Of a stretch of 48,734 nucleotides of DNA, positions 31,254 to 48,734 are shown one piece after another. Position numbers and translations under genes: made by a program. Source of the DNA: Verrucomicrobiota bacterium (GTDB lineage: Bacteria > Verrucomicrobiota > Verrucomicrobiia > Verrucomicrobiales > DEV007); contig JAHDID010000017.1 in NCBI GenBank assembly GCA_020630975.1, positions 56,299-105,032 of the forward strand, given 5' to 3'. The number at the start of each line of letters is the position of its first letter. Positions within the stretch are counted from its first letter, which is position 1. Below the pieces are notes generated by a model, which was given only the letters and a program-made list of their open reading frames with translations, had not been told where the DNA came from and did not search any database.

Positions 31254-31316
31254 TTTCTGGAAAGACCTTCGACAAATTTGTTAACTGCTAATACCTTAGC
31301 TCCGTTTAGAATTCTG

Positions 31317-32707: not shown

Positions 32708-32809
32708 ACCTCTATGAGACGCAGAAAGACCTGACTCGGTCAATCAAAGTCAGATCTTTCGAACGTGGTGAGGCGAAAAGCGCCACAATGTGATGATACT
32801 CCACCCTGC

Positions 32810-33499
32810 TTAGTCAAACGCTGCTATGGCAGCCTTTGCATCGGTAAAGCGCTTCTGGAATGAGGCAAATTTTTGGTTATTTTCTTCTGACTGCTCTGGG
32901 CTAGTGGCGATCCAAGCGCTGAAGTCTTTTTCCACAGCCTTGAATTCTGCGATAGCCGCCTTGAAGCTATCCGCCTTGTCAGGATTCGCCGCGATGAAAT
33001 TGGCAATCCCGCGCTTGCTCAGGCGTGTGGCTTTCTGGAAACTGGAGATAAACTGCTCGGGACTAGCACTCTGCGAGGCACCGAGCTTGCCGAGGACAGT
33101 CTCGCCATCGCTATCCAGCACAAAGTAGGTCGGAAATCCCTGCACCTGATAAGTGTTCTTCAACTTTTCGTTCTGCTCCTTGTAGCGCTTAGGCACCTTC
33201 ATCGGATCGCGCGGGAAATCGAGCAGCACGAGCACCGCATTATCCTTGGCGTAGGTCTTCCAGCCGTCTTTGGCGAATACCTCTTTATCCATATGAATGC
33301 ACCAGTGACACCAGTCTGAGCCGGTGAAATTCATGATGATCGGCAGATCTTTCTCCGCAGCGACTTTCTTCGCAGCCTCGAAGTCCATGGTCCACTGACC
33401 AGGCTCTGCGCCGACGATAGCGGCGGACTCTTCAGCGGTGGAAAGACACATCGAGAGTGCCGAGAGACCGAAAAATAGGGTGGAAATCTTTTTCATCAT
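32810..33499 (-). CDS. Exported thioredoxin-fold protein (CHWC)
   Basis: The 229-residue product has a Sec signal (core LFFGLSALSMCLSTA) and a thioredoxin-fold domain (about 35-155). IIMNFTGSDWCHWC carries the active-site pair Cys64 and Cys67, and VQGFPTYFVLDSDG holds the conserved cis-proline. It resembles thioredoxin-like DUF255/TlpA-related proteins that reduce or repair periplasmic disulfides. The C-terminal 75 residues form a helical extension (about 155-229). It sits 103 bp upstream of the LprI-like gene and 49 bp after the aldolase gene; cotranscription is possible. Confidence 0.85.
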   Translation of the reverse strand: MMKKISTLFFGLSALSMCLSTAEESAAIVGAEPGQWTMDFEAAKKVAAEKDLPIIMNFTGSDWCHWCIHMDKEVFAKDGWKTYAKDNAVLVLLDFPRDPMKVPKRYKEQNEKLKNTYQVQGFPTYFVLDSDGETVLGKLGASQSASPEQFISSFQKATRLSKRGIANFIAANPDKADSFKAAIAEFKAVEKDFSAWIATSPEQSEENNQKFASFQKRFTDAKAAIAAFD

Positions 33500-33547
33500 T
33501 AGTTCTGTTAGACGATTGGTCGCGGGATGGCATTACAGCTCGCGCGC

Positions 33548-34339
33548 TTAGCTCAAGAGCTTCAGCGCACTGGCTACCTCATCGCCACCATGCACGATAG
33601 CATTCAGAGCCTGCGCTATCGCTACCGGATTAGCGTGCTGCCAGACATTGCGCCCCACAGCGATACCGCTGGCACCTGCATCCATAGCTTTCTTCACCAC
33701 TGAGAGTAGCGCCTCATCATCGCCCATGGCAGCGCCACCGAGCACGATCACTGGCACAAAGCAGGATTCTACGATCGCCTTGAAATCATCGACCGAACCA
33801 TTGGTCGGAAATGCGGTCTTCACCACATCTGCCCCCATCTCTGCAGCAGCACGCACGGCGAAACCGATATTCTCCGGTGTGTAATCGTCGGGACGACCGA
33901 TACTGAATGGCAGGGTCTCGAGGATCACCGGCATCTCCGCATCGAGACTCTCGCCGATCAGCTCACCACACTCGCGAAAGATCTCCGCCTCGTTGCGGTG
34001 GTGGGTGTAGAGCATATTCATCACCGCATGAGCGCCGATCCCATCCGCATGCTCAGCGCTGTACACGCGGTAAGCGCCCTCGTCCTCATTTTCGCCGTAG
34101 GCAGGCTTGTAGACATCTGTCCGCAGACACACAGCCGAGTCCTCGAGCGCCTCGTGGGCAGCCAGAGCGAGGCCCATATTGACCACATAGCCATCCACGT
34201 GAGGACTAGTCGCCTCGATCAACCCGATTGGGTCTTCCATGCCGGGCACAGGGATAGCGGTGCCGTGGTCGATCGGCAGAATGACGGTTTTGCCATCTTT
34301 GCCGAAAAATTGATCCATGTTTTCTTCTCGAGACATCAT
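33548..34339 (-). CDS. Class I (DeoC/FbaB/LsrF-type) aldolase
   Basis: The 263-residue TIM-barrel aldolase has an N-terminal LPIDHG (Asp24, His25) and the Schiff-base lysine in DVVKTAFPT (Lys174). It also has VPVIVLGGAAMGDDEALL and GASGIAVGRNVWQ, the FbaB/LsrF family layout. It is a distant relative of the LsrF-type protein at 13236-14111. The real substrate is uncertain: fructose 1,6-bisphosphate, a 2-keto-3-deoxy acid from the nearby dehydratase, or another ketose phosphate. Phased 13-bp repeats lie 26-60 bp upstream of the start at 34339, so expression may be controlled there. Met8 is an alternative start. Confidence 0.82.
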   Translation of the reverse strand: MMSREENMDQFFGKDGKTVILPIDHGTAIPVPGMEDPIGLIEATSPHVDGYVVNMGLALAAHEALEDSAVCLRTDVYKPAYGENEDEGAYRVYSAEHADGIGAHAVMNMLYTHHRNEAEIFRECGELIGESLDAEMPVILETLPFSIGRPDDYTPENIGFAVRAAAEMGADVVKTAFPTNGSVDDFKAIVESCFVPVIVLGGAAMGDDEALLSVVKKAMDAGASGIAVGRNVWQHANPVAIAQALNAIVHGGDEVASALKLLS

Positions 34340-34365
34340 GCGGGGAATATCGCGCGGGTCGATTG

Positions 34366-34399
34366 AATAGGGTACAATTTTCTTTCAATAGGGTACAGT
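34366..34399. repeat. Phased 13-bp repeat array, locus 3 (two copies, 21-bp pitch)
   Basis: AATAGGGTACAAT at 34366-34378 and AATAGGGTACAGT at 34387-34399 are exactly 21 bp apart. A further unit position (34408 on) shows only a weak remnant. The array fills the gap between the PH-like gene's stop (34405) and the aldolase start (34339). Confidence 0.9.
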
Positions 34400-34404
34400 C
34401 CGAT

Positions 34405-34818
34405 TCAAAGGCTATCCCAGCCCTCTGCCAGACGGCTATCTTGCTCTTTCAGATAAGCCTCAGATTGGCGATACTCCACGTAGTCGGCGATGCGCTCGGC
34501 CGATTTGCGCGATTGTTTGCAGACATGTAGGATGACTCGACTGACATCACCTCCGGGGAAACTGCTGAGCTTATCAGTGTTCCGAGTCGTCAGCGTCAAT
34601 AGCTTGGGACCGAAAAGCTTACTGCTGTAGCTGATCGATTCGACCTCTGCGTAGCTGAGTTCCACGATAGTTTCCTCGTTCTTTTTAAAGGCTCGGTCCT
34701 TTTGCTTGAAGCGGATCGTCACGCCCGGATTGCTGCACATTACTTTGCCCTCCACACACTCGTAGCCGAGCGGATCGGTGGCAGGATTCTCAAAAAATAC
34801 GGAAATCTCGTCTCTCAC
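34405..34818 (-). CDS. PH-like domain hypothetical protein, 137 aa
   Basis: The 137-residue cytoplasmic protein has the beta-rich pattern of small PH-like or DUF-type lipid/protein-binding folds (GVTIRFKQKDRAFKKNEETIVELSYAEVESISYSSKL) and ends in a long C-terminal helix (SAERIADYVEYRQSEAYLKEQ). I do not recognise the exact family. It is on the same strand as the aldolase, with the phased repeats in the 65-bp gap, and downstream of the Pro/Gln-rich gene. Confidence 0.55.
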   Translation of the reverse strand: MRDEISVFFENPATDPLGYECVEGKVMCSNPGVTIRFKQKDRAFKKNEETIVELSYAEVESISYSSKLFGPKLLTLTTRNTDKLSSFPGGDVSRVILHVCKQSRKSAERIADYVEYRQSEAYLKEQDSRLAEGWDSL

Positions 34819-34845
34819 AGCGGTTATAGTAGCACAGCACTCAAT

Positions 34846-36123
34846 CTAAGCGACATCAGGTCTGAGGACTTCGAAAAATAGCTCCATGACCACATAGATC
34901 TCAGGCCGATCGAGAGGCTCTGGGATGATGCCTTTGAGCAGAAATTGCTCAGGATCATCGGAGCGGCCTAGCGAGATCAGGCACAGCCAGCCACCACTGG
35001 GCAGGGCCACCTGGGAGGCCGAGTGCTCCCTAGCCTCGTGCTCGTCGACACCAGAGGTGAAAATCTTTTCGACTGCAGCGATATACTCACTCGTGCTGGC
35101 AGAAAGCTTGTCGCAATGCAGAGTCTCAAACAAAGCCAGCCCGCGCCTGTCGATGACCGCCATCGCCTCCATGTGCACGTGAGTGCGCAGGATCTGCCAT
35201 AGCTCGTTCATCCGTCCCTGTAGCGAGAGATGGGCGTTGATCTCGCTATCCAGCGGGATGCGGTCCTGCGGTTCTGGCCGTGGCGGTGGCAGATCCTCTG
35301 CGGTGGGCTCAGATTCTATTTCAGGGTTTAGATCGATCTCGGTCGCATCCAGCACCACTTCTTCGCTAGGCTCCGATTTGGTAGACTCTGGCGGCTCGTC
35401 AGCTTCTGCATCTGCCGCAACCTCATCGGGAAATAAATCTTCGTCACCGGGGTCTTCCTCTATCGGTGGCTCAGCTGCGGGCAGGATACTGGCGCTCTGC
35501 TGCCTTGCTTCCTCAAGCTGCTGCAGAGCGCGCTCTGCGTCCAGGGCAAGCTGCTCGATCCGACCTTCGATGTCAGCGATCGATTCGTTTCCGTGATCAG
35601 CCGAGCGAGCCGCTGGCGCCTCCGCGACGACCTCGTCGTCATCAAAGCTAAATGGCGAACCTCCAGGAACCGCTCTCGGTACCATGATCTGCAAAGCCTC
35701 GCCAAAACCTGGCGGCATCTGATTGGCAGCGGCCGGAGCTACCTGCTGCGGTGGCGTCTGGTGCTGAGGCTGAGGCTGAGCGGGTACAGCTGGCTGCGCC
35801 ACAGGGTAGCCATGTGCAGGCGATACCTGCTGGTAGTTCGCTTGTGGTGCCTGAGCCTGAGCAGGAGGAGCTTGATGTGGGGCCTGCGGCTGAGCGTGGG
35901 GAGCGTACCCAGGCTGCGCCTGCACCTGTGCTTGATGTGCCGATGGTATATCCTGAAAAATATCATCGAAAAACTGTGGCCCACTCACTGGGTGTGGCTG
36001 CGCTGGAGGCTGATGAGCAGCCGGATGAGTCGGCACCACCGGCTGCTGGCTAGGCACCTGTGGCTGCCCCGACATCGCTGCCAGCAGGTCTAGCTCAGTT
36101 TGTCCCGTCCAATTGTCTTTCAT
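34846..36123 (-). CDS. Pro/Gln-rich protein with coiled coil and C-terminal globular domain
   Basis: From ATG 36123 the 425-residue product starts KDNWTGQTELDLLAAMSG (GTG 36132 is an alternative). A long Pro/Gln/Ala/His-rich stretch follows (about 25-150), then a short coiled coil (about 180-205), an acidic linker (about 210-290) and a globular C-terminus (about 297-425). The C-terminus contains GRMNELWQILRTHVHMEAMAVIDRRGLALFE and PSGGWLCLISLGR; its length and pattern are like a roadblock/LC7-type domain, which is a weak guess. The long disordered part suggests a cytoplasmic adaptor. The start overlaps the stop of a short upstream frame as TGATG. Confidence 0.6.
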   Translation of the reverse strand: MKDNWTGQTELDLLAAMSGQPQVPSQQPVVPTHPAAHQPPAQPHPVSGPQFFDDIFQDIPSAHQAQVQAQPGYAPHAQPQAPHQAPPAQAQAPQANYQQVSPAHGYPVAQPAVPAQPQPQHQTPPQQVAPAAANQMPPGFGEALQIMVPRAVPGGSPFSFDDDEVVAEAPAARSADHGNESIADIEGRIEQLALDAERALQQLEEARQQSASILPAAEPPIEEDPGDEDLFPDEVAADAEADEPPESTKSEPSEEVVLDATEIDLNPEIESEPTAEDLPPPRPEPQDRIPLDSEINAHLSLQGRMNELWQILRTHVHMEAMAVIDRRGLALFETLHCDKLSASTSEYIAAVEKIFTSGVDEHEAREHSASQVALPSGGWLCLISLGRSDDPEQFLLKGIIPEPLDRPEIYVVMELFFEVLRPDVA

Positions 36124-36344
36124 CAGCAGCACAGTGAAGGCTGCAGCGATGCTCGCGCCAGCTTCACAGTCGTTCGTTCGTGTTTACAGAGATATATCGT
36201 GCCAGACGAGTCGTGTATTAGTGCTATCACGCCTGACAGGTCAGTAAGGTAACCGACAATCTCTGTATCCGCTGAAAAAAGCGAGACTTCTGACTCTAGG
36301 TAGTCGCTGCGATCGCTCTGCCGGCTAGTCGCCCTGTGCTCCAC
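36123..36344 (-). CDS. Possible small gene coupled to the Pro/Gln-rich gene
   Basis: A 73-codon frame from ATG 36344 overlaps the last 49 bp of the HI0933 gene and ends at 36123, where TGATG couples it to the next ATG. Its middle reads TDLSGVIALIHDSSGTIYLCK, faintly like the GIY-YIG pattern (PGVYxxxDxxGxxxYVGK), but the YIG glycine is Cys and nothing follows. It is probably a decayed remnant or chance; kept because the gap has no other gene and the coupling is neat. Confidence 0.3.
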   Translation of the reverse strand: MEHRATSRQSDRSDYLESEVSLFSADTEIVGYLTDLSGVIALIHDSSGTIYLCKHERTTVKLARASLQPSLCC

Positions 36345-37531
36345 GCGCTTTGGAAATTGAATCCCCCTGTCACCCCATCGATGTCGAGCACCTCGCCGGT
36401 AAAATACAAGCCTGGCTGGAGCTGGCTCTGCATGGTGCGCATATCGACCTGACGCAGATCGACGCCGCCACAGGTGACAAACTCTTCCTTATTCATGCTC
36501 TTGCCGTCGACCTGCAGTTCACAGGCGACTAGTTGATCGAGCAACTGACGCAGCTGGGCTTTACTGACATTACCCCACTTCTCATCCGCCTCGATCTGAG
36601 CAGCCGTAGCCAACTGCCTCCACAGTCGACTGGGCACCCCACACTGCGGGTGGGCATGGACAGTCTGCTTACCGCTATTTTCCTTCATCTCCCGCCAGAC
36701 AGCCTCGATCGACTCGCGTGACTGACAGACCCAATCGACCTGTAGGGTAAATCGATAACCACGCTGCTGGAGCACTCGCGCACCGCGGGCAGATACTTTC
36801 AAGATGCCGGGCCCGCTCAGGCCCCAATGGGTCACGAGGATCGGCCCCGACTCAGACAGCCCTTTCTCGCCAATCACCGTGGCTCGGCCTAGGGGCACTG
36901 AGACACCGGCTAGCCCCTCGATCCGAGGATCGCGAATCTTAAAGGTAAACAGCGAAGGTGCTGCGGGCAGGATCTCGTGGCCAAAGCTAGCAGCAAACTC
37001 AGCACCCGCCGGATTGCGGATCCCGCCGGTAGCCACCACCACATTAGTGGCCTGGATGGCTTCGCCACTTTTCAGTTCGATCAAAAAACCTCCTGCTTTT
37101 GGCTGCGTCAGAGATGCGACCTCAGCTCGGCACCGAACTTCGACACCCAGCTCGTCGGCCGCGCCCTGTAGACAATCAATGATCGTCTGCGAATCATCTG
37201 TCCCTGGGAACATGCGACCATCCTCCTCGACCTTCAGCTCGACTCCACGATCCGAGAGCCAATCGATCATATCGCTGGCACTCCACTTGGTGAGAGGGCC
37301 GGGCAGCGCACGGTTACCACGGGGGTAGTGCCCAGCAAATTCACGGGCATCGTGACAATCGTGGGTCACATTGCATCGCCCCCCACCAGAGACCCGCACT
37401 TTCTGCAAAACGCTGGGGCCCTTCTCCAATATGGCGATACGCAGCGGCTGTGCAGCGCACTCTGCAGCCGACACAGCGGAGAAAAAACCCGCAGCGCCAC
37501 CGCCGATACAGACTAGATCGTAGCTATCCAT
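36296..37531 (-). CDS. HI0933-family flavoprotein (BaiN-like)
   Basis: The 411-residue FAD-dependent protein starts DSYDLVCIGGGAAGFFSAVSAAE (dinucleotide-binding loop). It has VRVSGGGRCNVTHD, the HI0933-family hallmark near residues 45-60, then NVVVATGGIRNPAGAE, THWGLSGPGILKVSA and the C-terminal VTCGGVDLRQVDMRTMQS and GEVLDIDGVTGGFNFQSAWSTG. Family members include BaiN, a bile-acid reductase, and YhiN; the physiological substrate here is unknown. Upstream sequence before ATG 37531 has no clear promoter. Confidence 0.92.
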   Translation of the reverse strand: MDSYDLVCIGGGAAGFFSAVSAAECAAQPLRIAILEKGPSVLQKVRVSGGGRCNVTHDCHDAREFAGHYPRGNRALPGPLTKWSASDMIDWLSDRGVELKVEEDGRMFPGTDDSQTIIDCLQGAADELGVEVRCRAEVASLTQPKAGGFLIELKSGEAIQATNVVVATGGIRNPAGAEFAASFGHEILPAAPSLFTFKIRDPRIEGLAGVSVPLGRATVIGEKGLSESGPILVTHWGLSGPGILKVSARGARVLQQRGYRFTLQVDWVCQSRESIEAVWREMKENSGKQTVHAHPQCGVPSRLWRQLATAAQIEADEKWGNVSKAQLRQLLDQLVACELQVDGKSMNKEEFVTCGGVDLRQVDMRTMQSQLQPGLYFTGEVLDIDGVTGGFNFQSAWSTGRLAGRAIAATT

Positions 37532-37653
37532 CTCAGGGCCACAGAGCCACGCTTAAGCCATTCGGCAAACGAGTTTTACAACTTGCGAGGAAATATAGGC
37601 CGCGATAGTCTCGCTAGAGCCCCTTTCCACTCGTCTACACCACGCACACACCT

Positions 37654-38004
37654 ATGAATTTTCTTTTTGAGTTACCAGCACCGATATTCCACTTCGTCGA
37701 GCAATTCGTCACCTGGATCGGCTTCAGCACGATCGTGGGACTGATCGGCAGCAACCTGGTGCTCCGCCGCAACCCGCCCAACTCAATCATCACCGTCCTT
37801 ATCGGATTCGCCGGCACCATCATCGGCTGGAGTATCGCCAGAGTCTATTTACTGCCCAACACCAAGATCGAAGAAGCCACGGCTGATCACTCCTGGAAGG
37901 TCGAGCTCCTGTCTCCCGCCACCTTCATCATCGGTCTGATCGGCACCATCTTTCTGCTATTTCTCTACATGATCATCGCCAAAAACATGGCGAAAGAAAA
38001 ATAA
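37654..38004 (+). CDS. Small membrane protein resembling transglycosylase-associated (GlsB/YmgE) family
   Basis: The 116-residue product has three membrane helices (about residues 10-33, 43-62 and 84-108). The pattern IVGLIGSNLVLRRNPPNSIITVLIGFAGTIIGW followed by LIGTIFLLFLYMII recalls the small GlsB/YmgE/YeaQ proteins, though a loop of about 30 residues (NTKIEEATADHSWKVELLSP) separates helices 2 and 3. It is divergent from the HI0933 gene (122 bp gap) and alone on the plus strand until the discoidin gene. Confidence 0.6.
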   Translation: MNFLFELPAPIFHFVEQFVTWIGFSTIVGLIGSNLVLRRNPPNSIITVLIGFAGTIIGWSIARVYLLPNTKIEEATADHSWKVELLSPATFIIGLIGTIFLLFLYMIIAKNMAKEK

Positions 38005-38167
38005 CCGCCCTTTAAACCCCTTTTCATTTTTTCCGCCTTTTTTCCGTTCTGTTGTGCCATAGGCAGCAGCCAGGGTGTCAGAGTGACTGCTCGCAGTCGA
38101 CGACTCCGCCCCCACTGACTACTTGATGCGCAGCGACTTAACCTTTAGTCACTTCGGTCACACACCT

Positions 38168-39616
38168 ATGCTCCGCTCTGTCCTAGCCCCAGTATGTCTA
38201 TGCCTATCGCTCGCAGGAGCGGCGCGTAGCTACGCCCTATCGGATAATCTACTGCTATCCCAGCGGGCCAGCGCATCGCTGGGCGATGCTGGAGCCGCTA
38301 TCGACGGCGACTCCACCACAGCCTGGCTAGCTGAGTCTGCCAAGCAAGCCTGGTGGGCCGTCGAAATGAGCGAGCCCACCGATATCCAGGCACTGAGTAT
38401 CCACTGGCGCGCCACTCGGCTGGCCCCCTACACGATCGAGATATCTCCAAACGGCACAGACTGGCAGGTCCTGCTACAAGGCTCCCTAGCCGAGCTCGAG
38501 ACTCCAGTTTCCGTACACGATGTGTCTGCCAGTTTTCGACACCTGCGCATCTCCAGTAGCACGGGCCTACTCAATGGCATCGCCGAGATCTCGGCCTACA
38601 GCGAGCAGAGTCAAGTCCCTGCCAATATCCGCGAAGCAGCAAAAGTGACACAGCGCTCCTCTCTGCACCTGCTCTCCCAAAGCAGTGTAGGCAAACGCTA
38701 CAAAGTGAGTCTGGAGCCACACGAGGGCCTGCGTAGCCTGGACGATCTGGAAGCCCCGCAGCAGTGGAAGAGCACGCTCAAAAATTTGGCCACAACCAAT
38801 GAACCCGAAGTCGTCCACGGGTTGATCTCTCGTATCGAGAAGACCGATTCTGGTAGCTTCCGCCAATTAGGCCTGCGAGCCCTAGCGGATATGTATCGGG
38901 ATAGCAAAGGCAGCGTCTGGGAGGAGAGCTACTCGATCGCCAAATTCCTCGAAAAACAATATGACAATCCCCGTGTCGATCCAGTGCCCCTCGTGTCGGA
39001 TACGATTCGCCATCAGGTCTCGATCTCAGATGTGGATACCGTGGTCGATCGTTGCCGCGGCAGTCTAGAGGTGGAGCAACTGCTGTTGGCCTTTCTCGAT
39101 CAGCAGCGAGAGCTCTCACCCAAAGCCGTTGAGTTTCTGGCTGACTTCGCCCAAGACAAAAATCTACCCTCTCAGCTCAGAGACCAGGCCTCCAGCCTGA
39201 TGGCACAAAGCTCAGGCCCCAAGACATTGGAGATGGCTTTCGAAAATGCCATCGAGACCAAGACCGATGATGATTGGAACCAAGTAAAAGATAACCCGAC
39301 TTGGAGCGAACACCTCAGCTGGCTCTCCGAGCAGACTCAAAATGAGGATAGTGGCTCATCTCGCCAGCTAGCTTGGACCGTGCTCACCCACCAATACGAG
39401 CGTGCCGACATCGGCGCAGAGCAAAGAGCATTCATCGACAGCATCGCAGCGAAGACACTCGCCAAGGGTGGCAGCTCCTACATCTCTCTCACCTCAGCCC
39501 TGCGCAATCGCCCAGTGGAAAGCTTCCGCGCCCTGCTCCTCGAGGGCACTGAGAGCAGCTCCAAGTCGGTCAAGTCATCTAGCTGGTACGCCTTGGAGAA
39601 ATTCCCCAAACGTTAG
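38168..39616 (+). CDS. Exported protein with F5/8 type C (discoidin-like) domain
   Basis: The frame is open from 38123, but ATG 38168 gives a Sec signal directly (LAPVCLCLSLAGAARSYA). The 482-residue product then has an F5/8 type C-like sandwich (about 25-140, with AIDGDSTTAWLAESAKQAWWAVEMS and PYTIEISPNGTDWQVL), the usual carbohydrate- or lipid-binding module. The remaining 330 or so residues are helical, rich in Ser, Gln and Glu, and look like HEAT-type or scaffold repeats. No catalytic motif is visible. Extracellular or periplasmic binding role inferred. Confidence 0.72.
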   Translation: MLRSVLAPVCLCLSLAGAARSYALSDNLLLSQRASASLGDAGAAIDGDSTTAWLAESAKQAWWAVEMSEPTDIQALSIHWRATRLAPYTIEISPNGTDWQVLLQGSLAELETPVSVHDVSASFRHLRISSSTGLLNGIAEISAYSEQSQVPANIREAAKVTQRSSLHLLSQSSVGKRYKVSLEPHEGLRSLDDLEAPQQWKSTLKNLATTNEPEVVHGLISRIEKTDSGSFRQLGLRALADMYRDSKGSVWEESYSIAKFLEKQYDNPRVDPVPLVSDTIRHQVSISDVDTVVDRCRGSLEVEQLLLAFLDQQRELSPKAVEFLADFAQDKNLPSQLRDQASSLMAQSSGPKTLEMAFENAIETKTDDDWNQVKDNPTWSEHLSWLSEQTQNEDSGSSRQLAWTVLTHQYERADIGAEQRAFIDSIAAKTLAKGGSSYISLTSALRNRPVESFRALLLEGTESSSKSVKSSSWYALEKFPKR

Positions 39617-39682
39617 CGATACGCTAAGCAATTGCTTAACATAACTTGAATATCTGCTCGACCTTTGCCATCATGAGTCTGG

Positions 39683-42600
39683 ATGGTGAGCCGGGACACG
39701 CATTGGTGGCATAAGGAGGAGGATAGAATCGTATGCGATCTCTGCCCTAGGCAGTGTCGTCTCCGCGATGGCCAGCGTGGCTTCTGCTTTGTGCGCGCCA
39801 ATCAGGGCGATCAGATGGTGCTCACCACCTATGGCAAGAGCACCGGCTTCTGCATCGATCCGATTGAGAAAAAGCCTCTCAACCACTTCCTCCCCGGCAC
39901 CCCTATTCTGTCTTTCGGCACTGCAGGCTGCAATCTCGGCTGCAAGTTTTGCCAAAACTGGAGCATCTCAAAATCTCGAGAAGTGGAGATCCTCAGTGCC
40001 GAGGCCTCGCCGGAAGCGATCGTAGCCGCCGCCAAGGAGCATGGCTGTAGCAGCATCGCCTTTACCTACAACGACCCGATCATCTGGGCGGAGTATGCCA
40101 TCGATGTGGCGAAGCTAGCTCGGCAGGAGGGCATCAAAACCGTGGCCGTCAGCGCTGGCTACATCACCCCAGAAGCGCGGCGCGACTTTTTCCCTCATCT
40201 CGATGCTGCCAATATCGATCTGAAGGCATTTACCGACGAATTTTACCGCAGCCTTGCCTTCGCACGCATCGATCCGGTGCTCGATACTCTCAAATGGCTA
40301 AAGCACGAGAGCCAAGTCTGGTTCGAAATCACCAACCTCGTCATCCCGACCAAGAACGACTCCAGCGAAGAGATCGGCAGACTGGTGGACTGGGTATTGG
40401 AAAATCTAGGACCAGATGTGCCGCTGCACTTCACCGCCTTTCACCCCGACTTCAAGATGCAAGATCTGCCACGCACACCGGCGGAGACACTGCAGCGAGC
40501 TCGCCAGCAGGCTATCGATAGTGGAATACACTACGCCTATGTCGGCAATGTCCTAGACCTAGAGAGGCAGAGCACCTATTGCCCGAGCTGTGGCAACCTA
40601 GTAATTGAGAGGAACCACTACGAGCTCGGTAAGTTCGACGTTTTAGATAGTAAGTGCGGCTCCTGCAATGCCCCTATTGCAGGCGTCTTCGCTGGCCAGA
40701 GAGGCGACTGGGGGCGCAAACGCCTGCCTATATCCATCCCCACACACACCAAACACCCGGAGATGATTCAGAACCACACCACCAAAGAACGCAAAGACTT
40801 CTCAGAAGAAGACGGCCGGATGCTACTCGGCCTAGCAGATCGCTGCATACGCGCGGCGCTCGATGATCAGCCACCACCCAATTTCAAACACCCTCTGGAG
40901 GATGCCATGGTCGTCGGTGTCTTCGTATCTCTGAAGCGTGGCTCACAGGTATTGCGCTCCTGCTGTGGCAGCCTGAATGAGAAAAAGCCTGCAGCTCTCA
41001 AACAACTACTCATGTCGGCGGCCAAACGCGCCGCAGTCGGAGATGAGAGATTCCCCCGCATCGACAAGCGCGAGCTACCACATCTCGATCTGGAAGTCTC
41101 TGTCATGCACGATCTGCGCGACATGCCGACTGATCCCAACCAGAGACTGGCCTCGATCACCATCGGTCGGCATGGCTTGATCATATCCCACCCGAAAGGC
41201 AGAGGCCTATTGCTACCTCAGGTAGCAGCCGAGCGCGAGTGGGATGCCCCCACCTTTCTCGAACAAGTCTGTCGTAAAGCAAATTTGCCGACTAACACCT
41301 GGCTCCAACCAGAGGCATCGCTCAAACAATTCTCCGCGACGATATTTGATCGCAAAGCCGATGCTCGGGACATCGACTTCCGCGAGCTGTCGCAAGAGAT
41401 TCACGATGCGGCCTTTGACTATGCCAATGCCGTACTAGCCGACGGTACAGGGCCTAGCGATATCCCGAGCGAACTTTCGATGCAGGTCCCTAGGGCAGGC
41501 TGGGGCATGCTGATCCAAGTGGACCGAAAGCGAGCTGAGGCTGCCTTTCACGATCGCGGCCCTCTATCGAATATGATCTCGGCGATCACGAGAGAGATCT
41601 ATCGTCCCGACGCCGAAAATAAGATCACCAATTTTTTGGTATTCAGCCACCACGTGCCGCTCGATCCTCGCGATTTCCCCGACCGCCTCAAACTTATCCA
41701 GCCAGGTCAGGCCGTGACGGTGCGCAATGGCGGGCGCACCACGATCTCGCTCAAGCAAGGCAATGCCAATCCGCTATTGAAAGCCCTAAAACAATCCGGC
41801 AATAGCCCAGAGACCTGGGCGAAAAGTAATCTCGATGTCGGTCTGCATCTCGGGGTGAACTGGATGAAAAGCTCCAATGTCAGCAGTGTCGAGTCGCCTA
41901 AGCAGCAGGCCAGCCCACCAGACACCCGCCCCACTGCGGTGGCGGGCCGCTTCTACCCCGGCACTGAGGCAGAGGTGAAGCAAGAGCTCGACCAATACTA
42001 CCGCTCCTACCTCTCAGAGGATAAACAGAGTGTCCGTGCCATCATGCTACCCCACGCTGGGTGGAAATACTGTGGCGACATCATCGCAGAGACGCTCGGA
42101 CAAATAGAAATACCCGATCTAGTGGTAATCCTCGGCCCCAAACACACCCCTCTGGGGCCCCGCTGGTCGGTCTCTAACTCTCGCCACTGGCAGATACCGG
42201 GGGCTAAGATCCCCGTCGACGAGGAATCCGCCTCCTATCTCGCGGCCAATATCGATCCACTGGTCAGAGATAGCCTAGCCCACCAGAAAGAACACGGCAT
42301 CGAGGTACTGCTCCCCCATCTCCACCATCTCAATCCGAACATCAGAATCGCACCCATCGTGGTAGGCTCCGGCACCTTAAAGGAATTCCAGGAAATAGGT
42401 GATGTGCTGAATAGTTTCCGCAAGAGAATCGAGTCCGATGGGGAGAAAGTACTATTCATCATCTCCAGTGATCTGAATCACTTCGCCGAAGATGCCGAAA
42501 ACCGCCGCCTCGATAAACTCGCTCTAGATGCCTTTGTATCTGGTGATACCGAGCGTCTATTCCACACCTGTACCAAGGAGAATATCTCCATGTGCGGCAT

Positions 42601-42748
42601 GCGCCCCGCAGTCGCAGTGCTCAGCTCTCTAGACCTACATGTCGACAAGGGAAAACCCGAGATCGATGTGGTCCGCTACGAGACTAGCGCTCGTGTCTCG
42701 GGCGACCCGAGTAAAGTCGTCGGCTATGCAGGAGCTTTGATCACCTGA
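39683..42748 (+). CDS. AmmeMemoRadiSam triple fusion (radical SAM + AMMECR1 + Memo)
   Basis: The 1021-residue protein unites three AmmeMemoRadiSam components. Residues 1 to about 350 are the radical SAM enzyme: an N-terminal CDLCPRQC (18-25), the cluster motif CNLGCKFC (83-90) and a zinc-ribbon-like pair of Cys motifs (CPSC 300-303, CGSC 325-328). Residues 378-555 are AMMECR1-like (VGVFVSLKRG; LRSCCG where LRGCIG is usual; GLLLPQVAAEREWD). About 556-735 is unrecognised. About 745-1021 is Memo-like with expected metal residues His791, His821, Asp930, His933 and Cys971. The natural substrate of this system is not established. Translation may begin at ATG 39683 or GTG 39686. It stands alone on the plus strand. 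Confidence 0.93.
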   Translation: MVSRDTHWWHKEEDRIVCDLCPRQCRLRDGQRGFCFVRANQGDQMVLTTYGKSTGFCIDPIEKKPLNHFLPGTPILSFGTAGCNLGCKFCQNWSISKSREVEILSAEASPEAIVAAAKEHGCSSIAFTYNDPIIWAEYAIDVAKLARQEGIKTVAVSAGYITPEARRDFFPHLDAANIDLKAFTDEFYRSLAFARIDPVLDTLKWLKHESQVWFEITNLVIPTKNDSSEEIGRLVDWVLENLGPDVPLHFTAFHPDFKMQDLPRTPAETLQRARQQAIDSGIHYAYVGNVLDLERQSTYCPSCGNLVIERNHYELGKFDVLDSKCGSCNAPIAGVFAGQRGDWGRKRLPISIPTHTKHPEMIQNHTTKERKDFSEEDGRMLLGLADRCIRAALDDQPPPNFKHPLEDAMVVGVFVSLKRGSQVLRSCCGSLNEKKPAALKQLLMSAAKRAAVGDERFPRIDKRELPHLDLEVSVMHDLRDMPTDPNQRLASITIGRHGLIISHPKGRGLLLPQVAAEREWDAPTFLEQVCRKANLPTNTWLQPEASLKQFSATIFDRKADARDIDFRELSQEIHDAAFDYANAVLADGTGPSDIPSELSMQVPRAGWGMLIQVDRKRAEAAFHDRGPLSNMISAITREIYRPDAENKITNFLVFSHHVPLDPRDFPDRLKLIQPGQAVTVRNGGRTTISLKQGNANPLLKALKQSGNSPETWAKSNLDVGLHLGVNWMKSSNVSSVESPKQQASPPDTRPTAVAGRFYPGTEAEVKQELDQYYRSYLSEDKQSVRAIMLPHAGWKYCGDIIAETLGQIEIPDLVVILGPKHTPLGPRWSVSNSRHWQIPGAKIPVDEESASYLAANIDPLVRDSLAHQKEHGIEVLLPHLHHLNPNIRIAPIVVGSGTLKEFQEIGDVLNSFRKRIESDGEKVLFIISSDLNHFAEDAENRRLDKLALDAFVSGDTERLFHTCTKENISMCGMRPAVAVLSSLDLHVDKGKPEIDVVRYETSARVSGDPSKVVGYAGALIT

Positions 42749-42775
42749 TTTTTTTCAGCCGAACGTACGCCAAAG

Positions 42776-43936
42776 TTACAGTAGCGAATCGATCAAAACA
42801 TAAAGCCCGATCCCTGCTCCGAGCACAGACAGTGGAAACGCTATCCAATCGCGATAGATATGCTTATGGGTGAATTTGGCTTTCAACAGCGAGATCACCA
42901 CACATATCAATACCCATAGTAGATAGATACCCGCGAGGAATACCGCAAAACTGCCATTCAACACCTTGGCTTGCGGACTAGCAGCCATGACCATACCCAA
43001 GGCCGAAGCCGCCACTGCTACCAAAATCAAACGGAGCCAATGGGCAGGCAGCACAGGAGTCACATTATCCAGCGCCACTATCAGTAGACACACAGTCGCT
43101 ACCCAAAGGTAGGCATTCTGCCCTGGTACGATACCGGAGTGTACCAATGAAAACCCCAGGCTGTGGCAGACGATAAACATTCCAAGAGTCACGACCAATG
43201 GCTGGCGATGCACACCTAGTAACGTGAGAACGAATACCGCTAATGGAAAACCCAACCCATGTTGCCCCAGATTCGCCCTCAACCCCCTACCTAGTGACTC
43301 CAGCGTCACCGAGCCGGCAGAATCCTCACCATCCGTTTTCGTCTGGGTAGCAGCGGCAGAGACCGGCTCGACGATCTCAAAGGGGTCACCATCACTAAGC
43401 TGTTCTATATTTTCGATCTTACTATACTCACCTCCGAACATCACCTGTAGGCGCCTCTGCTCCTCACCGTTCTTTATCGTAGCCAAGATAGTCGACATAT
43501 CGGCGGTCTCTCTCAGGTAGAGGGCCAGCTCTCTGCCTGACTCGGGCAACTCACCCTGCCACACCGTTTCGTAGACCATTCTTTTCAGCTCGTCTGGGGT
43601 ATCTTCATCGGAGCGGTTCACCAGATTCGACACCAGGGATTGTGGCATCTCCTGCTCGTCTACCAGCACAGCGAGATTACTTTCCACAAAGGTACGTGCG
43701 GCCTGGTCTGGGCCGATCTCGTCATCGAGCTCTGCGTCTTGAGAGGACTCGACCTCGGTCTCCACCGTCAGCCGAAACCAGCGCTCATCGCGCGTCTCGA
43801 TCTCTAGCACCATCGATGCAGAGGATACCTGGTGGGCCAGCCCCGGCTGCTGTAGGCCTGCCAGCGCCAAAATCAGCAAACTCAACCGAACGCCTATATG
43901 GAGCACGGATCTAGTTGGCAGTGGAAGAGAGATCAT
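42776..43936 (-). CDS. HupE/UreJ-like membrane protein with large N-terminal extracytoplasmic domain
   Basis: From ATG 43936 the 386-residue product has a signal-like segment (VRLSLLILALAGLQQPGLA), then an extracytoplasmic domain (about 35-220). Six or so membrane helices follow, with GMFIVCHSLGFSLVHSGIVPGQNAYLWVATVC, resembling the HupE_UreJ_2 core (tafTlaHS). The usual metal-site lead G-x-E-H-x-x-x-G-x-D-H is replaced by GLRANLGQHGLGF, so metal transport is uncertain. Six more in-frame start codons lie upstream to 43987. It converges with the fusion gene (27 bp) and follows the receiver gene by 121 bp on the same strand. Confidence 0.65.
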   Translation of the reverse strand: MISLPLPTRSVLHIGVRLSLLILALAGLQQPGLAHQVSSASMVLEIETRDERWFRLTVETEVESSQDAELDDEIGPDQAARTFVESNLAVLVDEQEMPQSLVSNLVNRSDEDTPDELKRMVYETVWQGELPESGRELALYLRETADMSTILATIKNGEEQRRLQVMFGGEYSKIENIEQLSDGDPFEIVEPVSAAATQTKTDGEDSAGSVTLESLGRGLRANLGQHGLGFPLAVFVLTLLGVHRQPLVVTLGMFIVCHSLGFSLVHSGIVPGQNAYLWVATVCLLIVALDNVTPVLPAHWLRLILVAVAASALGMVMAASPQAKVLNGSFAVFLAGIYLLWVLICVVISLLKAKFTHKHIYRDWIAFPLSVLGAGIGLYVLIDSLL

Positions 43937-44057
43937 CAAATAAAGGAGAATCGACGTCCATCCGCCGAGCACCCTATTTTCCACCATCTGCGGCGATCCG
44001 ACAACCCCGCAAACGCTCAGCCTTCACAAGCCACGACTATGCCTGAGACTAAGAACT

Positions 44058-44468
44058 CTAGATAAAGTCGTAGCTGACCAACTCGTCATCCGGCTGGATC
44101 AAGCTAGCGATGGTCTCCTCCACCTCGGAGACGACCATGGGTTTAGCATGCACGGCATCCACATTCGCCTTCGCATCCTCGGCCTCCAGCACCGCCTCAT
44201 AGAAGCCTGTGAGGATCACGATCGGGATGTCAGGCGCGATCTCACGCAATTCTTTGGCCAAATCCAGACCCGTCATTTCCGGCATCATCTGGTCAGTGAT
44301 CACCAGATCGACACTAGTCGGGTCTGCCGCGATGAACTGCAGGACCACATCTGGGGAATTAAAGGCATTCACCTGGTAGCCTTTCTTTTTCAGCATTAGC
44401 GATGCCGATTTGAGGATGATCGGGTCGTCATCGACCAATACTAGACTATTTCCGGGAAGGTTATTCAT
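44058..44468 (-). CDS. Stand-alone response regulator receiver (REC) protein
   Basis: The 136-residue product is one receiver domain: acidic pocket VDDDP (Asp13-Asp15), phosphoacceptor Asp59 in LVITDQMMPEMTG, Thr87 in VILTG and Lys109 in HAKPM. All key residues are present, so phosphorylation is expected. There is no output domain. It is the last gene of the OmpA cluster, 92 bp after the preceding gene, and a 48-bp inverted repeat lies immediately before its start (44472-44519). How a signal is received is unknown; no histidine kinase is in the window. Confidence 0.9.
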   Translation of the reverse strand: MNNLPGNSLVLVDDDPIILKSASLMLKKKGYQVNAFNSPDVVLQFIAADPTSVDLVITDQMMPEMTGLDLAKELREIAPDIPIVILTGFYEAVLEAEDAKANVDAVHAKPMVVSEVEETIASLIQPDDELVSYDFI

Positions 44469-44471
44469 GCC

Positions 44472-44519
44472 TATAAAAACAAAACAGTGATAAAATTTAT
44501 CACTGTTATTGTTTTTATA
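44472..44519 (-). promoter_or_regulatory. Long inverted repeat immediately upstream of the receiver gene
   Basis: The 23-bp left arm (44472-44494) matches the reverse complement of the 24-bp right arm (44496-44519) except for one inserted base, around a one-base centre. On the minus strand the hairpin ends in a T-rich run (TTTTGTTTTTAT) and stops three bases before the ATG at 44468. It could terminate transcription of the OmpA gene, mask the receiver ribosome site, or bind a protein; no promoter is obvious between. Confidence 0.75.
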
Positions 44520-44560
44520 AACTTAAAATTCTTCCTTTCGTTGAGAAAGGCGCTCAGGCA

Positions 44561-46075
44561 TCACAGCCCGACCGACACTGTAACCGATGGCGGAGACAAA
44601 ATCCGGCCCTCGTCTGAGAGACTGATATCGTCTGTCGTCAGTTGGCTATCCTCCACCCCACGCTCGGTTAATTTTTTCTTCACCGCCAACACTCGGCGAG
44701 AAGACAGCAGTTGTTTGAAGTCGTTGCTGGATGCCAGATCTTCAAGCCCCTGGATCTTTACGATCCGCTTATCATTCCCCTCTTTGGATCCCTCTACGAT
44801 CGACTGCAGTTTCACTAGCTCGCTCTCCTTGAGATAAGCACTATTCGCATCGAAGAAAATATTCGAAATCAGCGGGCCCTCTACCTTACGAGCAGGTGGT
44901 GCCGGTTTCGCAGGCTTGGGCGGTGCTGCTGGTGGCGGTGGTGTGACTGGCAGCGGTATCGGTGGCTTCGCTGCAACACTAGCAGCAGCAGGCTTAGGCT
45001 CAGGCTGGGCTTTATCAGCATCTGCAGTATCTGCTACCTCAGGCTTCTTCTCCTCTTTATCCTTATCCAGGGCCGACTTGCCAGTCGCTACAGCGGCGAC
45101 ACTGGCAGCTGCGGTCGCTGCAGCAGCTCCCACTTTGGCGATGGCGCTCTTAGCTCCGTCCTGCTTATCCTTATCGTCATCGCTAGACTCAGATTTATCA
45201 GCCGCCGAGGTCGTCTTCTTCTCCTCTTCATCGGAGAGTTTGGTAAATTCAAAGGTCTTTGAGTCCTCTTTCTGCTCTGCGCTATCATCCTCGTCAGCAG
45301 CTTTTTCCGCCTTAGCCACAGCCTGCTCGGGCTCTGCGACGGTGTTAGACACATTGCTGTTGTTTTCCGATATCTCCCAGACGATAGGCTCCAGCTTGGG
45401 GCGGCCCTCGCTGTCAGCATTCTCTCCACTGTCACCTGATGTATCAGCCGCATCGCCTTCGCGGAACCACCCTGTCACGCCGTGCGAGGGCTGTGTGGTG
45501 CTCTCTGGCAGCTCAGGGCGCTCTTCATCTATCCACACCACTTCCTCATCGCTGATGTCCTTTGCAGGAGCAGGCACAGGCGCTGGCTTTTGGAATGCGG
45601 GATCGGGCTCGTCAAAAGGATCTCTGGCGGGGACCTCCGAAACGGAGAACATCGCATCGCCAGCGACTGCTGCAGTAGCAGCGCCGATCGCAGCAGCTGA
45701 AGGACCAAAGTCGAGTCCACCCATCGTCACCGGTGGTTCCTCTTCCGAAGCCACGTTGCTCAGCGATTCGTCTGCCGAATTCACTTCCCGATCCTCTAGA
45801 TTAGCGATCAATGATCCCAAGCTAGGCTGATCTCCAGAACTAACGGCAGCACGGATGGATGCAGCTTGAGCGGGACTATCGGCATACTGGGCCGCGTCTT
45901 TCGCCGCAGCAGTAGCAGAGTCGACTCCCTTTTTACCACCCATACCCTCTAGAGCTTCGATCAAACGATCGAGAGACTCAGAGATTTCTCCTTGCTGCTG
46001 TAGCACAGCCTTAGCTTGCTCAGTTTGGATACGAGCTTTATCACGGAGAGCTTTTAGGTGCTCAAGCTGATTCAT
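44561..46075 (-). CDS. Acidic/Pro-rich protein with C-terminal OmpA-like domain
   Basis: From ATG 46075 the 504-residue product begins NQLEHLKALRDKARIQTEQ. It has a short coiled coil (about 1-45), a long acidic low-complexity region rich in Glu, Asp, Ser and Ala (about 55-330), a Pro-rich linker with PPPPAAPPKPAKPAPP and a C-terminal OmpA-like fold (about 405-500). In the OmpA part, SNIFFDANSAYLKESELVKLQSIV and SSRRVLAVKKKLTERGV follow the family pattern, but the usual GhTD motif reads QGLED. An Ala-rich helix (GAAAATAAASVAAVATG) might be a membrane segment. No signal peptide seen. Confidence 0.75.
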   Translation of the reverse strand: MNQLEHLKALRDKARIQTEQAKAVLQQQGEISESLDRLIEALEGMGGKKGVDSATAAAKDAAQYADSPAQAASIRAAVSSGDQPSLGSLIANLEDREVNSADESLSNVASEEEPPVTMGGLDFGPSAAAIGAATAAVAGDAMFSVSEVPARDPFDEPDPAFQKPAPVPAPAKDISDEEVVWIDEERPELPESTTQPSHGVTGWFREGDAADTSGDSGENADSEGRPKLEPIVWEISENNSNVSNTVAEPEQAVAKAEKAADEDDSAEQKEDSKTFEFTKLSDEEEKKTTSAADKSESSDDDKDKQDGAKSAIAKVGAAAATAAASVAAVATGKSALDKDKEEKKPEVADTADADKAQPEPKPAAASVAAKPPIPLPVTPPPPAAPPKPAKPAPPARKVEGPLISNIFFDANSAYLKESELVKLQSIVEGSKEGNDKRIVKIQGLEDLASSNDFKQLLSSRRVLAVKKKLTERGVEDSQLTTDDISLSDEGRILSPPSVTVSVGL

Positions 46076-46152
46076 GCACAAACCTAACGGACGGGCTAGG
46101 CAGGACAACAAAATTTTTTTTAGTGTTGCAAAAAAAGCACGATTTTTCTGCC

Positions 46153-46425
46153 TTATTTGGAAGAAAGACGCTCTCGACGCACTTGGCTATCGACTGTAGC
46201 CCGATAAATCTCCATTCGTTCGAAGTCACGAGCGTTCTCCCTCTCGACCTCCAAAACAGCTGCTCTACCCCTCCGGTAGAAAGGAGCAGCAGCTAAAACC
46301 GCCAGAATCATGACGAACAGAGCGTAAGTAGCCAACAGCCACCACTGCCCAGTCTGGCTGAGACCATCGCCATCGCGCAGGGCCTCAGGGAGCATTCCTA
46401 TCGGGTTTAGGGAGAGCATCATCAT
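46153..46425 (-). CDS. Small single-span membrane protein
   Basis: The 90-residue product has one membrane segment (about residues 28-48, WWLLATYALFVMILAVLAAAP), then RRGR and a basic, Glu- and Arg-rich cytoplasmic tail. It lies between the two OmpA-domain genes (11 and 77 bp gaps) and is presumably cotranscribed. Alternative in-frame ATG starts exist at the N-terminus (MMM). Family not recognised. Confidence 0.65.
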   Translation of the reverse strand: MMMLSLNPIGMLPEALRDGDGLSQTGQWWLLATYALFVMILAVLAAAPFYRRGRAAVLEVERENARDFERMEIYRATVDSQVRRERLSSK

Positions 46426-46436
46426 GGTAATTGGCC

Positions 46437-47930
46437 TTAGTTGATCACCTCTGCGACGGGTAGCAGCACGATCTCGACCCGCCGCGCCCGCCAGCTATCC
46501 TCTCGAGAGTTCGCTAGCGCGGGGTCCAGACCACGGCTGCTAGTGACTAGTAGCTCAGGCTCGACTCCTAGCTCGGTCAGAAACTGCTGCACAGACTCGA
46601 CTCTCTCACTGCTGATCGCTTTGCCCTCGGCATCGTCCTCGTCGGCACAGGCATAGGCCGATAGGCTCAGCTGCTGACCGGAGTCGATCACACCACGGGC
46701 GATGCGGCTCAGCAGTTTGGCTCCGTCCTCACCGATCTCGTCGCTACCTCTGTCGAAATAGACCACAGACTTCTGTCCCGGCGACTGACTGCTCACTCTG
46801 CTGCGCTGGTTGTTAGATTGCGAGAGTCTATTGATGTCGACATCACCGCTACCGCTCTCCACTGGCGCTACCTCTCGGGGCTGCTGCACACCGGCTAGCT
46901 GCTCCTGGAGATTTTCTACCATCGATGTGAGAGCCTTGATCTCGGCGCTACCACCGCCCTGATCGAGCAGACGCTCGAGATTATCGACACGCTTATCCCG
47001 GCGCTCCAGCTCCTCGAGTAGCATATCCATACGTGCATTAGTATTGCGCAGTTCTTCGCGCTCGGCCTCCACATCGGGATCGTGATCAGCAGCCAAAGCC
47101 TGCTCCAGCTCGAGGCTGAGTCGATTGCGCTCCTGTCGAGCCACGCTCAGCTCCTCATTAGCCTTGGCTAGCTTGGTGCGCAGCTCCTCAGAGTCTTGGT
47201 CCTGTTGCTTCTGGTCCGCCCACTTGGCGACCAGCTTGTCCACTGCAGCTTTGAGCTCGTGGTTCTGCTTGCGCATCTGCTCGACATCTTTGGTCTTTTG
47301 GTCGAATTGCTCTTTCAGTCGTGCCAACTCACCGACCCGCTTTTTCAGCTCGCCATCCAGTCGCTCATTGCTAGCTTTGATCTCGGCATTGGCTCCGGCT
47401 TTTGGCTCGCGCAGCAGTCGGATCTGCTCAGTCATCTCCTCGACTCGCTTCTGATGAGACTCGACTTTCTCTTCCATGGCGAGAGTCATCGACTTTACCT
47501 TAGACTCGAGATTACGGATCTTATCGTCGCGCTCCTCGATACCAGAGGCCTCTCGCTGCAGCGACTCGACCTCGCGGCGAGATAATGCTGAGCGGCTAGA
47601 CGAGATCTCGCCCAGCTCCTCCTCCAGCTGAGATATCGTCTGCTCACGGTCACGCAACTCGGCATTGAGATCGTTTTCGCGGGCTTGAGCATCGCTAGAC
47701 TCGTCGGATAGGCGCTGGCCCAGTTTTTCCACCAGCTGACTCTGGCTGATCCCTAGAGTGGCCCACTGCCCGGCGAGATAAGCGCTATCACTCAACGCAC
47801 GCTCGAGTCGGCGGGCATTTTTGCCCCAGATCTGCCGCGCCAACAGCACACCCAGATAGGTCGCCAAGAATCCCGTGACGGTAAATACCAACCAGGCAGG
47901 CAGGCCATTGATGAGTGTCGCTTGTATCAT
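46437..47930 (-). CDS. Membrane protein with long coiled coil and C-terminal OmpA-like domain
   Basis: The 497-residue product has an N-terminal membrane anchor (about 11-35, PAWLVFTVTGFLATYLGVLLA), a long coiled coil (about 55-340) and a C-terminal OmpA-like domain (about 380-490). The last contains SVVYFDRGSDEIGEDGAKLLSRIA, LSLSAYACADEDDAEGKAISSERVESVQQFL and RARRVEIVLLP. OmpA-like folds bind peptidoglycan; the layout recalls MotB- or TolR-like and other envelope-spanning proteins, but no MotA/TolQ partner is in the window. Neighbouring small membrane proteins suggest one complex. The OmpA motif varies from the consensus (YACADEDD in place of GHTDxxG). Confidence 0.82.
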   Translation of the reverse strand: MIQATLINGLPAWLVFTVTGFLATYLGVLLARQIWGKNARRLERALSDSAYLAGQWATLGISQSQLVEKLGQRLSDESSDAQARENDLNAELRDREQTISQLEEELGEISSSRSALSRREVESLQREASGIEERDDKIRNLESKVKSMTLAMEEKVESHQKRVEEMTEQIRLLREPKAGANAEIKASNERLDGELKKRVGELARLKEQFDQKTKDVEQMRKQNHELKAAVDKLVAKWADQKQQDQDSEELRTKLAKANEELSVARQERNRLSLELEQALAADHDPDVEAEREELRNTNARMDMLLEELERRDKRVDNLERLLDQGGGSAEIKALTSMVENLQEQLAGVQQPREVAPVESGSGDVDINRLSQSNNQRSRVSSQSPGQKSVVYFDRGSDEIGEDGAKLLSRIARGVIDSGQQLSLSAYACADEDDAEGKAISSERVESVQQFLTELGVEPELLVTSSRGLDPALANSREDSWRARRVEIVLLPVAEVIN

Positions 47931-47947
47931 AGCTAATCGGTCAGATT

Positions 47948-48205
47948 TTAGGAATTCGTTCGCTTCATGAGCACAGTCACATCCTGCCGCAACTTCACGA
48001 CATCTCGGCTGACTAGATCGTACTCACCTTGCAACTGTTTCATGGCACCTTCGATGGTGTCAGCCTGTACCTTGGCACCATGACAGTACTTGCGCCCTAT
48101 CACCACGCCCATGACGATGCAAAACAAGGCGAAAAGAAGGACCAGCCATACAGGAGCACTCTGAGCGAGTACGATTTGGGGATTTTGTAGTGTTTGAAGC
48201 AGCAT
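47948..48205 (-). CDS. Small membrane protein, first gene of the OmpA cluster
   Basis: The 85-residue product has one hydrophobic segment (about residues 17-38, APVWLVLLFALFCIVMGVVIG) and a charged tail with a predicted short coiled coil (QADTIEGAMKQLQGEYDLVSRDVVKLRQDVTVLM). Its stop lies 17 bp before the coiled-coil OmpA gene, so it is probably the first gene of that operon. Not recognised beyond this. Its upstream 529 bp holds no gene. Confidence 0.65.
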   Translation of the reverse strand: MLLQTLQNPQIVLAQSAPVWLVLLFALFCIVMGVVIGRKYCHGAKVQADTIEGAMKQLQGEYDLVSRDVVKLRQDVTVLMKRTNS

Positions 48206-48549
48206 AATCAGAATTGCTCTTCAAAAGATGAAAGACAACAGATCCAGATTGTCAAGCTTACTTAATAAAAATCTAAGCAGAAAACCGCATCAAAATGGAG
48301 CGAAACCATCGCTTTAGCTGAGAAATTGCTCCCAAAGTCATACCTTTTGATCTCATTGCGCAGAACCGTGACCACAGGCTCAGCCCATCCACCAACTGAT
48401 GCAATGCGAAGCCAATGCACCTAACCAGAAGGCGGAGCCACATCCCCACGCACGAATACTCGTCTCCCACCTCAGGTACTCGACAGACATTCTGATCACC
48501 TGCTCTCAACCCCAAAATAGGACTGCCAAAGCATCCCGCGTACTGGGAA

Positions 48550-48568
48550 CGGCGGTTTGCAACCGCCG
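48550..48568. repeat. Short perfect palindrome
   Basis: CGGCGGTT (48550-48557) and AACCGCCG (48561-48568) are perfect arms around TGC. The form is like dispersed palindromic repeats; a second copy was not found in the window. Confidence 0.6.
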
Positions 48569-48652
48569 GACAACCCCAGCCCACCCTTCGAGCCCAAATC
48601 AAGCAACTCCACCTTGAGCTCCGCAGTTATTCACAGATTAGCTCAGATGGAG

Positions 48653-48670
48653 CACAGATTACACAGATTT
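48653..48670 (+). repeat. Left arm of an 18-nt inverted repeat
   Basis: CACAGATTACACAGATTT is the exact reverse complement of the last 18 bases of the window (48717-48734). The repeat may continue beyond the window edge. Related TCACAGATTAGCTCAGAT lies just before it. Confidence 0.7.
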
Positions 48671-48716
48671 GCCGTACCCATCGCCCCACCAAAAATATCT
48701 GCACAACCAAGCAAAA

Positions 48717-48734
48717 AAATCTGTGTAATCTGTG
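48717..48734 (-). repeat. Right arm of an 18-nt inverted repeat (at window edge)
   Basis: AAATCTGTGTAATCTGTG ends exactly at the window border and pairs perfectly with 48653-48670. Similar CACAGATT-type sequences are common dispersed repeats in several phyla, from memory. Confidence 0.7.

Follow-up and report, generated by a model that had tools for sequence, protein, structure and literature searches.

The window analyzed here (the whole stretch of 48,734 nucleotides from a Verrucomicrobiota bacterium) encodes at 39683-42748, on the + strand, a 1021-aa protein that carries all three components of the AmmeMemoRadiSam system in one chain, in the order radical SAM (rSAM), AMMECR1, a putative second AMMECR1-like domain and Memo. 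The same order is found in other genomes. We think it likely that this is a one-chain AmmeMemoRadiSam enzyme acting as a single machine, with two redox centers and, according to profile comparisons, a pair of AMMECR1 domains between them. AMMECR1 and MEMO1 are widespread and both are also found in humans; the function of AMMECR1 was described as still unknown in the available text of a 2016 paper (PMC5502304), and that of PMC11081632 likewise treats what MEMO1 primarily does at the molecular level as unknown. A single chain with AMMECR1, Memo and radical SAM parts offers a practical handle on them (one protein, one gene, fixed assembly).

Domain architecture of the fused protein

The ORF starts with ATG and contains no internal stops. 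Profile searches bear out the three-component fusion proposed by the first-pass annotation, with each domain past its curated cut-off: TIGR04337 matches residues 7-352 (39701..40738, + strand; 579 bits vs. a cut-off of 220, E 2.7e-174), TIGR04335 matches residues 380-555 (40820..41347, +; 121.8 bits vs. 99, E 1.9e-35) and TIGR04336 matches residues 749-1019 (41927..42739, +; 235.7 bits vs. 26, E 5.4e-70). The protein is also above the cut-off of the Pfam models Radical_SAM, AMMECR1 and Memo, so that all three signature families of the AmmeMemoRadiSam system are found within one chain. The window differs from the known system in having one chain, an apparent extra divergent AMMECR1-like domain and an altered AMMECR1 motif. 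In its own genome (7.14 Mb, 158 contigs, 95.8% complete) the 1021-aa protein is the sole match at E <=0.001; separate copies of the components were therefore not found there. The Verru_Chthon cassette family TIGR02598 exceeds its cut-off in this genome, in genus-mate G024 and in G044, a member of the same order, but has no match in G042 (also of that order), G431, G739 or 14 control genomes; this agrees with a placement in Verrucomicrobiota.

The radical SAM domain has a fold like that of the pyruvate formate-lyase (PFL)-activating enzyme (3c8f), its nearest rSAM structure by fold and by sequence (Foldseek with the full-length model, E 3.7e-12, among the best 50 rows), but it falls short of the PFL-activase family cut-off (TIGR02493; 54.8 bits vs. 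231.75). Its cluster motif CNLGCKFC (residues 83-90, 39929..39952, +) is of the CxxxCxxC type. In an alignment of the 17 spacer-type proteins (15 rows hold the rSAM part and 16 the Memo part), C83, C87 and C90 are invariant in all 15 rows with the rSAM part, and the Memo residues H791, H821, D930, H933 and C971 in all 16 rows with the Memo part.

The Memo part resembles MEMO1 (7l5c, Foldseek E 3.0e-19) and, more remotely, extradiol dioxygenases among the best 50 rows. It shares the extradiol-dioxygenase-like fold of Memo/MEMO1 (PF01875; 7kq8, 7l5c) and equivalent ligand residues, and differs by its fusion to radical SAM and AMMECR1; moreover, an ISMCGM-type segment lies at the Cys ligand, which is missing from five of six stand-alone Memo rows. 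According to the portion of PMC11081632 available, the iron/copper ligands of human MEMO1 are H49, H81 and C244, D189/H192 lie near the metal site yet do not bind metal, and dioxygenase activity was undetected with the substrates tried. By alignment, His791 (42053..42055, +) and His821 (42143..42145, +) are the equivalents of H49 and H81, and Cys971 (42593..42595, +) is the probable equivalent of C244; the alignment to MEMO1 spans both ligand His and the D/H pair, and the C971-C244 match comes from the CG motif. The first-pass annotation had the positions of CNLGCKFC, LRSCCG (see below) and the five Memo residues right, but had listed all five as metal residues: H791, H821 and C971 match the ligands, whereas D930/H933 correspond to the non-ligand pair D189/H192. 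The MEMO1-type ligand set is thus complete, and we predict an Fe/Cu-type His-His-Cys site in this domain.

Occurrence of the fusion and its split forms

The single-chain order rSAM-AMMECR1-spacer-Memo was found in 15 genomes, i.e. in 14 besides the window's. In a draw of 392 genomes from the phylum of carrier L044, 12 (that of L044 counted) have a full-length single-frame match, each with all four parts, and 11 of these are further genomes. Five of the fused loci in this phylum sit on contigs of 7.4-8.9 Mb. Among the matches listed for a draw of 387 genomes from the window's phylum, the only full-length match is in the window's own genome, and the same holds for 56 relatives (window's genome included). 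The fusion is therefore rare in these draws yet recurrent, and the majority of the carriers seen belong to the phylum of L044. Fused carriers L030, L044 and L031 are labelled Rhodopirellula, Pirellulales and Planctomycetota MAGs. The available text of the literature searched (including PMC7159879, PMC13386939, PMC6393860, PMC12710340 and PMC5502304) makes no mention of a three-way fusion; 'Memo-Ammecr1 systems' are mentioned in that of PMC7159879, citing Burroughs et al. 2019.

The components had been described as usually separate genes. This is correct in that the rSAM is its own ORF in 64 of 80 rSAM rows (a non-random sample), but two-way fusions exist too: four loci (L037, L048, L137, L139) encode B-A proteins (A, AMMECR1; B, Memo), and four genomes of the window's genus (G001, G010, G013, G015) have the rSAM as its own ORF plus an A-B protein without the second copy, on different contigs in G001. 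Close to the fused form are three split ones. In genus-mate G024, which is 77, 64, 42 and 67% identical to the window's four parts, an rSAM ORF and an A-spacer-B ORF share an ATGA at the rSAM/AMMECR1 joint; in G599 (L126), rSAM and A are separate same-strand ORFs with 117 bases between them; and in G784 the split falls between A and the second copy. A different order is seen in a 768-aa frame of G654 (L136:2066-4369), where Memo comes first, followed by a shortened AMMECR1 of about 112 aa and then rSAM; this is the only such fusion among the 12 long-open-frame loci retrieved. The contig is short (7.4 kb), and the shortening of AMMECR1 might therefore stem from an assembly join.

Kin of the fused form are split at either of two joints (rSAM-A in G024 and G599, A-second copy in G784), which is what one might see if the fusion were a genetic convenience, with domains tied for co-expression and acting independently. 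We consider this unlikely, since the split parts in G024, G599 and G784 remain adjacent or overlapping and the three-way fusion exists in two different orders, as expected if the proteins associate. That the components work together was suggested by the first-pass annotation as well, and the recurrence of the fusion in other genomes argues for it.

The spacer as a probable second AMMECR1-like domain

Between the AMMECR1 and Memo domains lies a stretch that was initially annotated as an unrecognised spacer (556-735). By profile comparison it appears to be a second, divergent AMMECR1-like domain without LRGCIG (about residues 559-729; 41357..41869, +). Using hhalign, a profile of 17 spacers matched a 38-row AMMECR1 profile (two genes entered twice) with a score of 43.7 (P 7e-6), collinear over 172 columns; none of 200 column shuffles, which preserve composition, exceeded 18.1, and five control pieces of similar length cut from the spacer-type proteins themselves did not exceed 14.4. 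When the AMMECR1 profile was limited to the 21 rows that do not come from the 17 spacer-type proteins (among them L101, which belongs to the spacer-bearing clade, and two repeated genes), the score was 38.4 (P 5e-5). Spacers realigned by themselves gave 35.2 (P 1.6e-4; 100 shuffles <=21.1, reversed alignment 10.6), or 27.8 (P 0.0024) with the 21-row profile. A set of only the 14 Pirellula-type spacers scored 33.5 against the outside rows, and three spacers alone (window, G024, L031) matched AMMECR1 weakly (24.9, P 0.006, 76 columns).

These comparisons are best explained by a second AMMECR1 domain that has diverged and no longer has the hexapeptide. A linker of other origin, or a small domain of its own with only a likeness to AMMECR1, would be rather improbable: the match is collinear across nearly the whole domain, and its score far exceeds those of the column shuffles and control pieces. 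In favor of such an unrelated stretch, none of the 17 spacers (stretch 558-745) matched the AMMECR1 models of Pfam or NCBIfam, a search of PDB sequences with the spacer profile did not find AMMECR1, and the identity between spacer and AMMECR1 in local profile alignments is just 9-15%. AlphaFold2 confidence is low as well, with a mean pLDDT of 34 for the isolated spacer (alignment of 4 of the 17 spacers) and values below 50 over residues 560-746 of the full-length model (15 rows); AlphaFold2 did not fold the spacer, and its AMMECR1 nature is therefore read from profiles. Of six close pairs compared, five show purifying selection on the stretch (dN/dS 0.07-0.16), and the sixth (L030/L044, few changes) has a spacer dN/dS of 0.82.

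With a second AMMECR1-like domain present, the chain would be 1:2:1, and not 1:1:1 as the first-pass annotation had it. If the spacer is indeed a second AMMECR1 domain, it predicts that an AMMECR1 pair is the working unit, which is testable in three-gene systems too.

An altered AMMECR1 motif accompanies the putative second copy

The first AMMECR1 domain has the fold and family of AMMECR1 (PF01871; 1vaj, 1zq7, 1wsc; PH0010 1vaj at E 6e-23), and differs by the change from LRGCIG to LRSCCG (residues 424-429, 40952..40969, +) and by the apparently degenerate second copy behind it. LRGCIG is described in the available text of PMC5502304 as a highly conserved motif, with a variant of one of its glycines in a human family with disease. 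The window domain passes the family models despite LRSCCG, and its membership therefore rests on the whole domain.

The motif change noted at first pass is real and conserved in the clade. After removing loci that repeat one gene, the 18 AMMECR1 domains with a second copy (9 of them from close kin, L092-L100) read LRSCCG (12), LRACCG (3), LRACRG (2) and LRGCCG (1), and the 18 without a second copy read LRGCIG (14), LRGCRG (2), LQGCIG (1) and LRARAG (1). Cys is found at position five in 16 of 18 domains with the second copy vs. none of 18 without, and the last Gly is kept in all 36 domains compared. Across these alignments LRSCCG is a clade trait, and the motif change clearly goes with the second copy, as an association with few independent events behind it. 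A metal site formed by the Cys pair, an idea raised at first pass, was ruled out as a clade-wide feature: two of the 18 domains (L031 and L101) read CR, with Arg for the second Cys, and a Cys-Cys metal site is therefore not essential to the clade as a whole.

The rSAM/AMMECR1 joint and the history of the fusion

At the joint where G024 has its shared ATGA, the window retains an ATGA (40763..40766, +), here with an in-frame Met361 and with the TGA in another frame; an indel separates the split state of G024 from the fused state of the window. Just before the joint is a CCCC/(CA)n stretch, and a single indel could therefore switch one state to the other. An assembly or base-calling indel might thus have fused the window chain, the real genes overlapping by ATGA as in G024, but we give this little credence because 14 other genomes are fused across the same joint and the window frame is open and stop-free across all 1021 aa. 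Even if true, it would affect the window's copy only and leave the architecture unchanged.

In the Memo tree, the 17 spacer-bearing proteins (15 fused, G024 and G784) fall inside one 23-row group (100/96), which also contains the four A-B proteins and a divergent Memo of G016 (two rows, one gene); G599 is absent since the locus used was incomplete. A single clade of the 17 was rejected (AU p 0.0017, 41 rows), also after removal of four long rows (AU p 0.0043), because the spacer-less A-B proteins (G001, G010, G013, G015) nest among the spacer-bearing ones. In the AMMECR1 tree of all 37 rows the spacer-bearing domains are not together, and one clade is not rejected (AU p 0.30); without two long rows (one gene), a branch (92/85, not starred) sets the 18 spacer-bearing domains apart from the rest. 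The two trees conflict over the A-B proteins: joining them with the window and G024 is marginally rejected in the AMMECR1 tree (p 0.049), whereas they group together in the Memo tree (99/99). A scenario consistent with this is that the A-B lineage lost the second copy and had its AMMECR1 domain replaced. In the rSAM tree (80 rows; fragments L006, L049 and L051 and repeated loci excluded), the fused state requires three changes. The tree results thus point to fusion and fission more than once, or to a fused ancestor with loss in some lines.

A very divergent AMMECR1 (LRARAG) and Memo, both on long branches, are encoded on two contigs of G016, a member of the window's genus (L088:9184-9993 and L087:7685-8833).

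Proposed function

In the reading that we favor, the N-terminal radical SAM domain would generate a 5'-deoxyadenosyl radical, and the two AMMECR1 domains would pack as an uneven pair (one with the motif and one without) that may hold the substrate or pass it on. The Memo domain would perform a second redox step at its predicted iron- or copper-binding His-His-Cys site; the radical SAM site and this one would act in turn on the substrate held by the AMMECR1 pair, and the fusion would keep both redox centers together. A counterpoint is that G001, G010, G013 and G015 manage with an A-B protein that has no second copy. Burroughs and colleagues reportedly predicted, in 2019, nucleotide-base or isoprenoid modification.

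PFL-activating enzyme installs a radical on a glycine of its partner. By analogy, the radical SAM domain might act in cis on the two AMMECR1 domains, placing a radical or a radical-installed modification in the LRxC(C)G loop; the modified AMMECR1 would then serve the Memo site as a cofactor, and the copy lacking the motif would have evolved as the fixed partner of this AMMECR1. Such a scheme would account for the co-occurrence of altered motif and second copy (16/18 vs. 0/18) and for the conflict between the AMMECR1 and Memo trees over the genus-mates without a second copy, but we regard it as very unlikely.

AMMECR1 is listed among anaerobe markers in the available text of PMC13386939 (2026), with values of 3.38 vs. 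50.66 that we read as percent of aerobes vs. anaerobes. The window genome has two COX1-family matches, so the organism can probably respire oxygen.

Genomic neighborhood of the fused genes

We compared the ORFs in 15 flanking regions (about 6-8 kb per side in most regions; 30001-48734 for the window). The regions gave no substrate lead, and a companion gene common to distant carriers was not found widely in them, which fits a self-contained machine. L121-L125 have most of their flanks in common, as do L082 and L083. L121-L125 come from five related genomes in the phylum of L044 and encode a 651-681-aa protein immediately after the fused gene, in the same orientation; this family, whose L121 member is thioredoxin-like (PF00578), is a possible redox partner. 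Another ORF family lies upstream, with the L121 copy matching PF02660. Beyond these groups, matches were confined to scattered pairs or trios: ECF sigma factor (L081, L121, L126), DUF1501 (L030, L119), N_methyl/DUF1559 protein (L031, L127) and AstE_AspA protein (L119, L120), which we took for large common families, part of the members having been scanned with profiles.

In the window, the gene of a 497-aa Discoidin-type (F5/8 C) protein (38123-39616, +) lies on the same strand as the fused gene and stops 66 bases short of it; the comparison with the other 14 regions turned up no relative. Other genes in the window encode a YjhG/YagF-family D-xylonate dehydratase (26763-28697; TIGR03432, 1054 bits) and, on the minus strand at 44561-47930, two proteins that match OmpA/Pal-type models weakly, under the curated cut-offs; the second of them also weakly matches SMC-type models.
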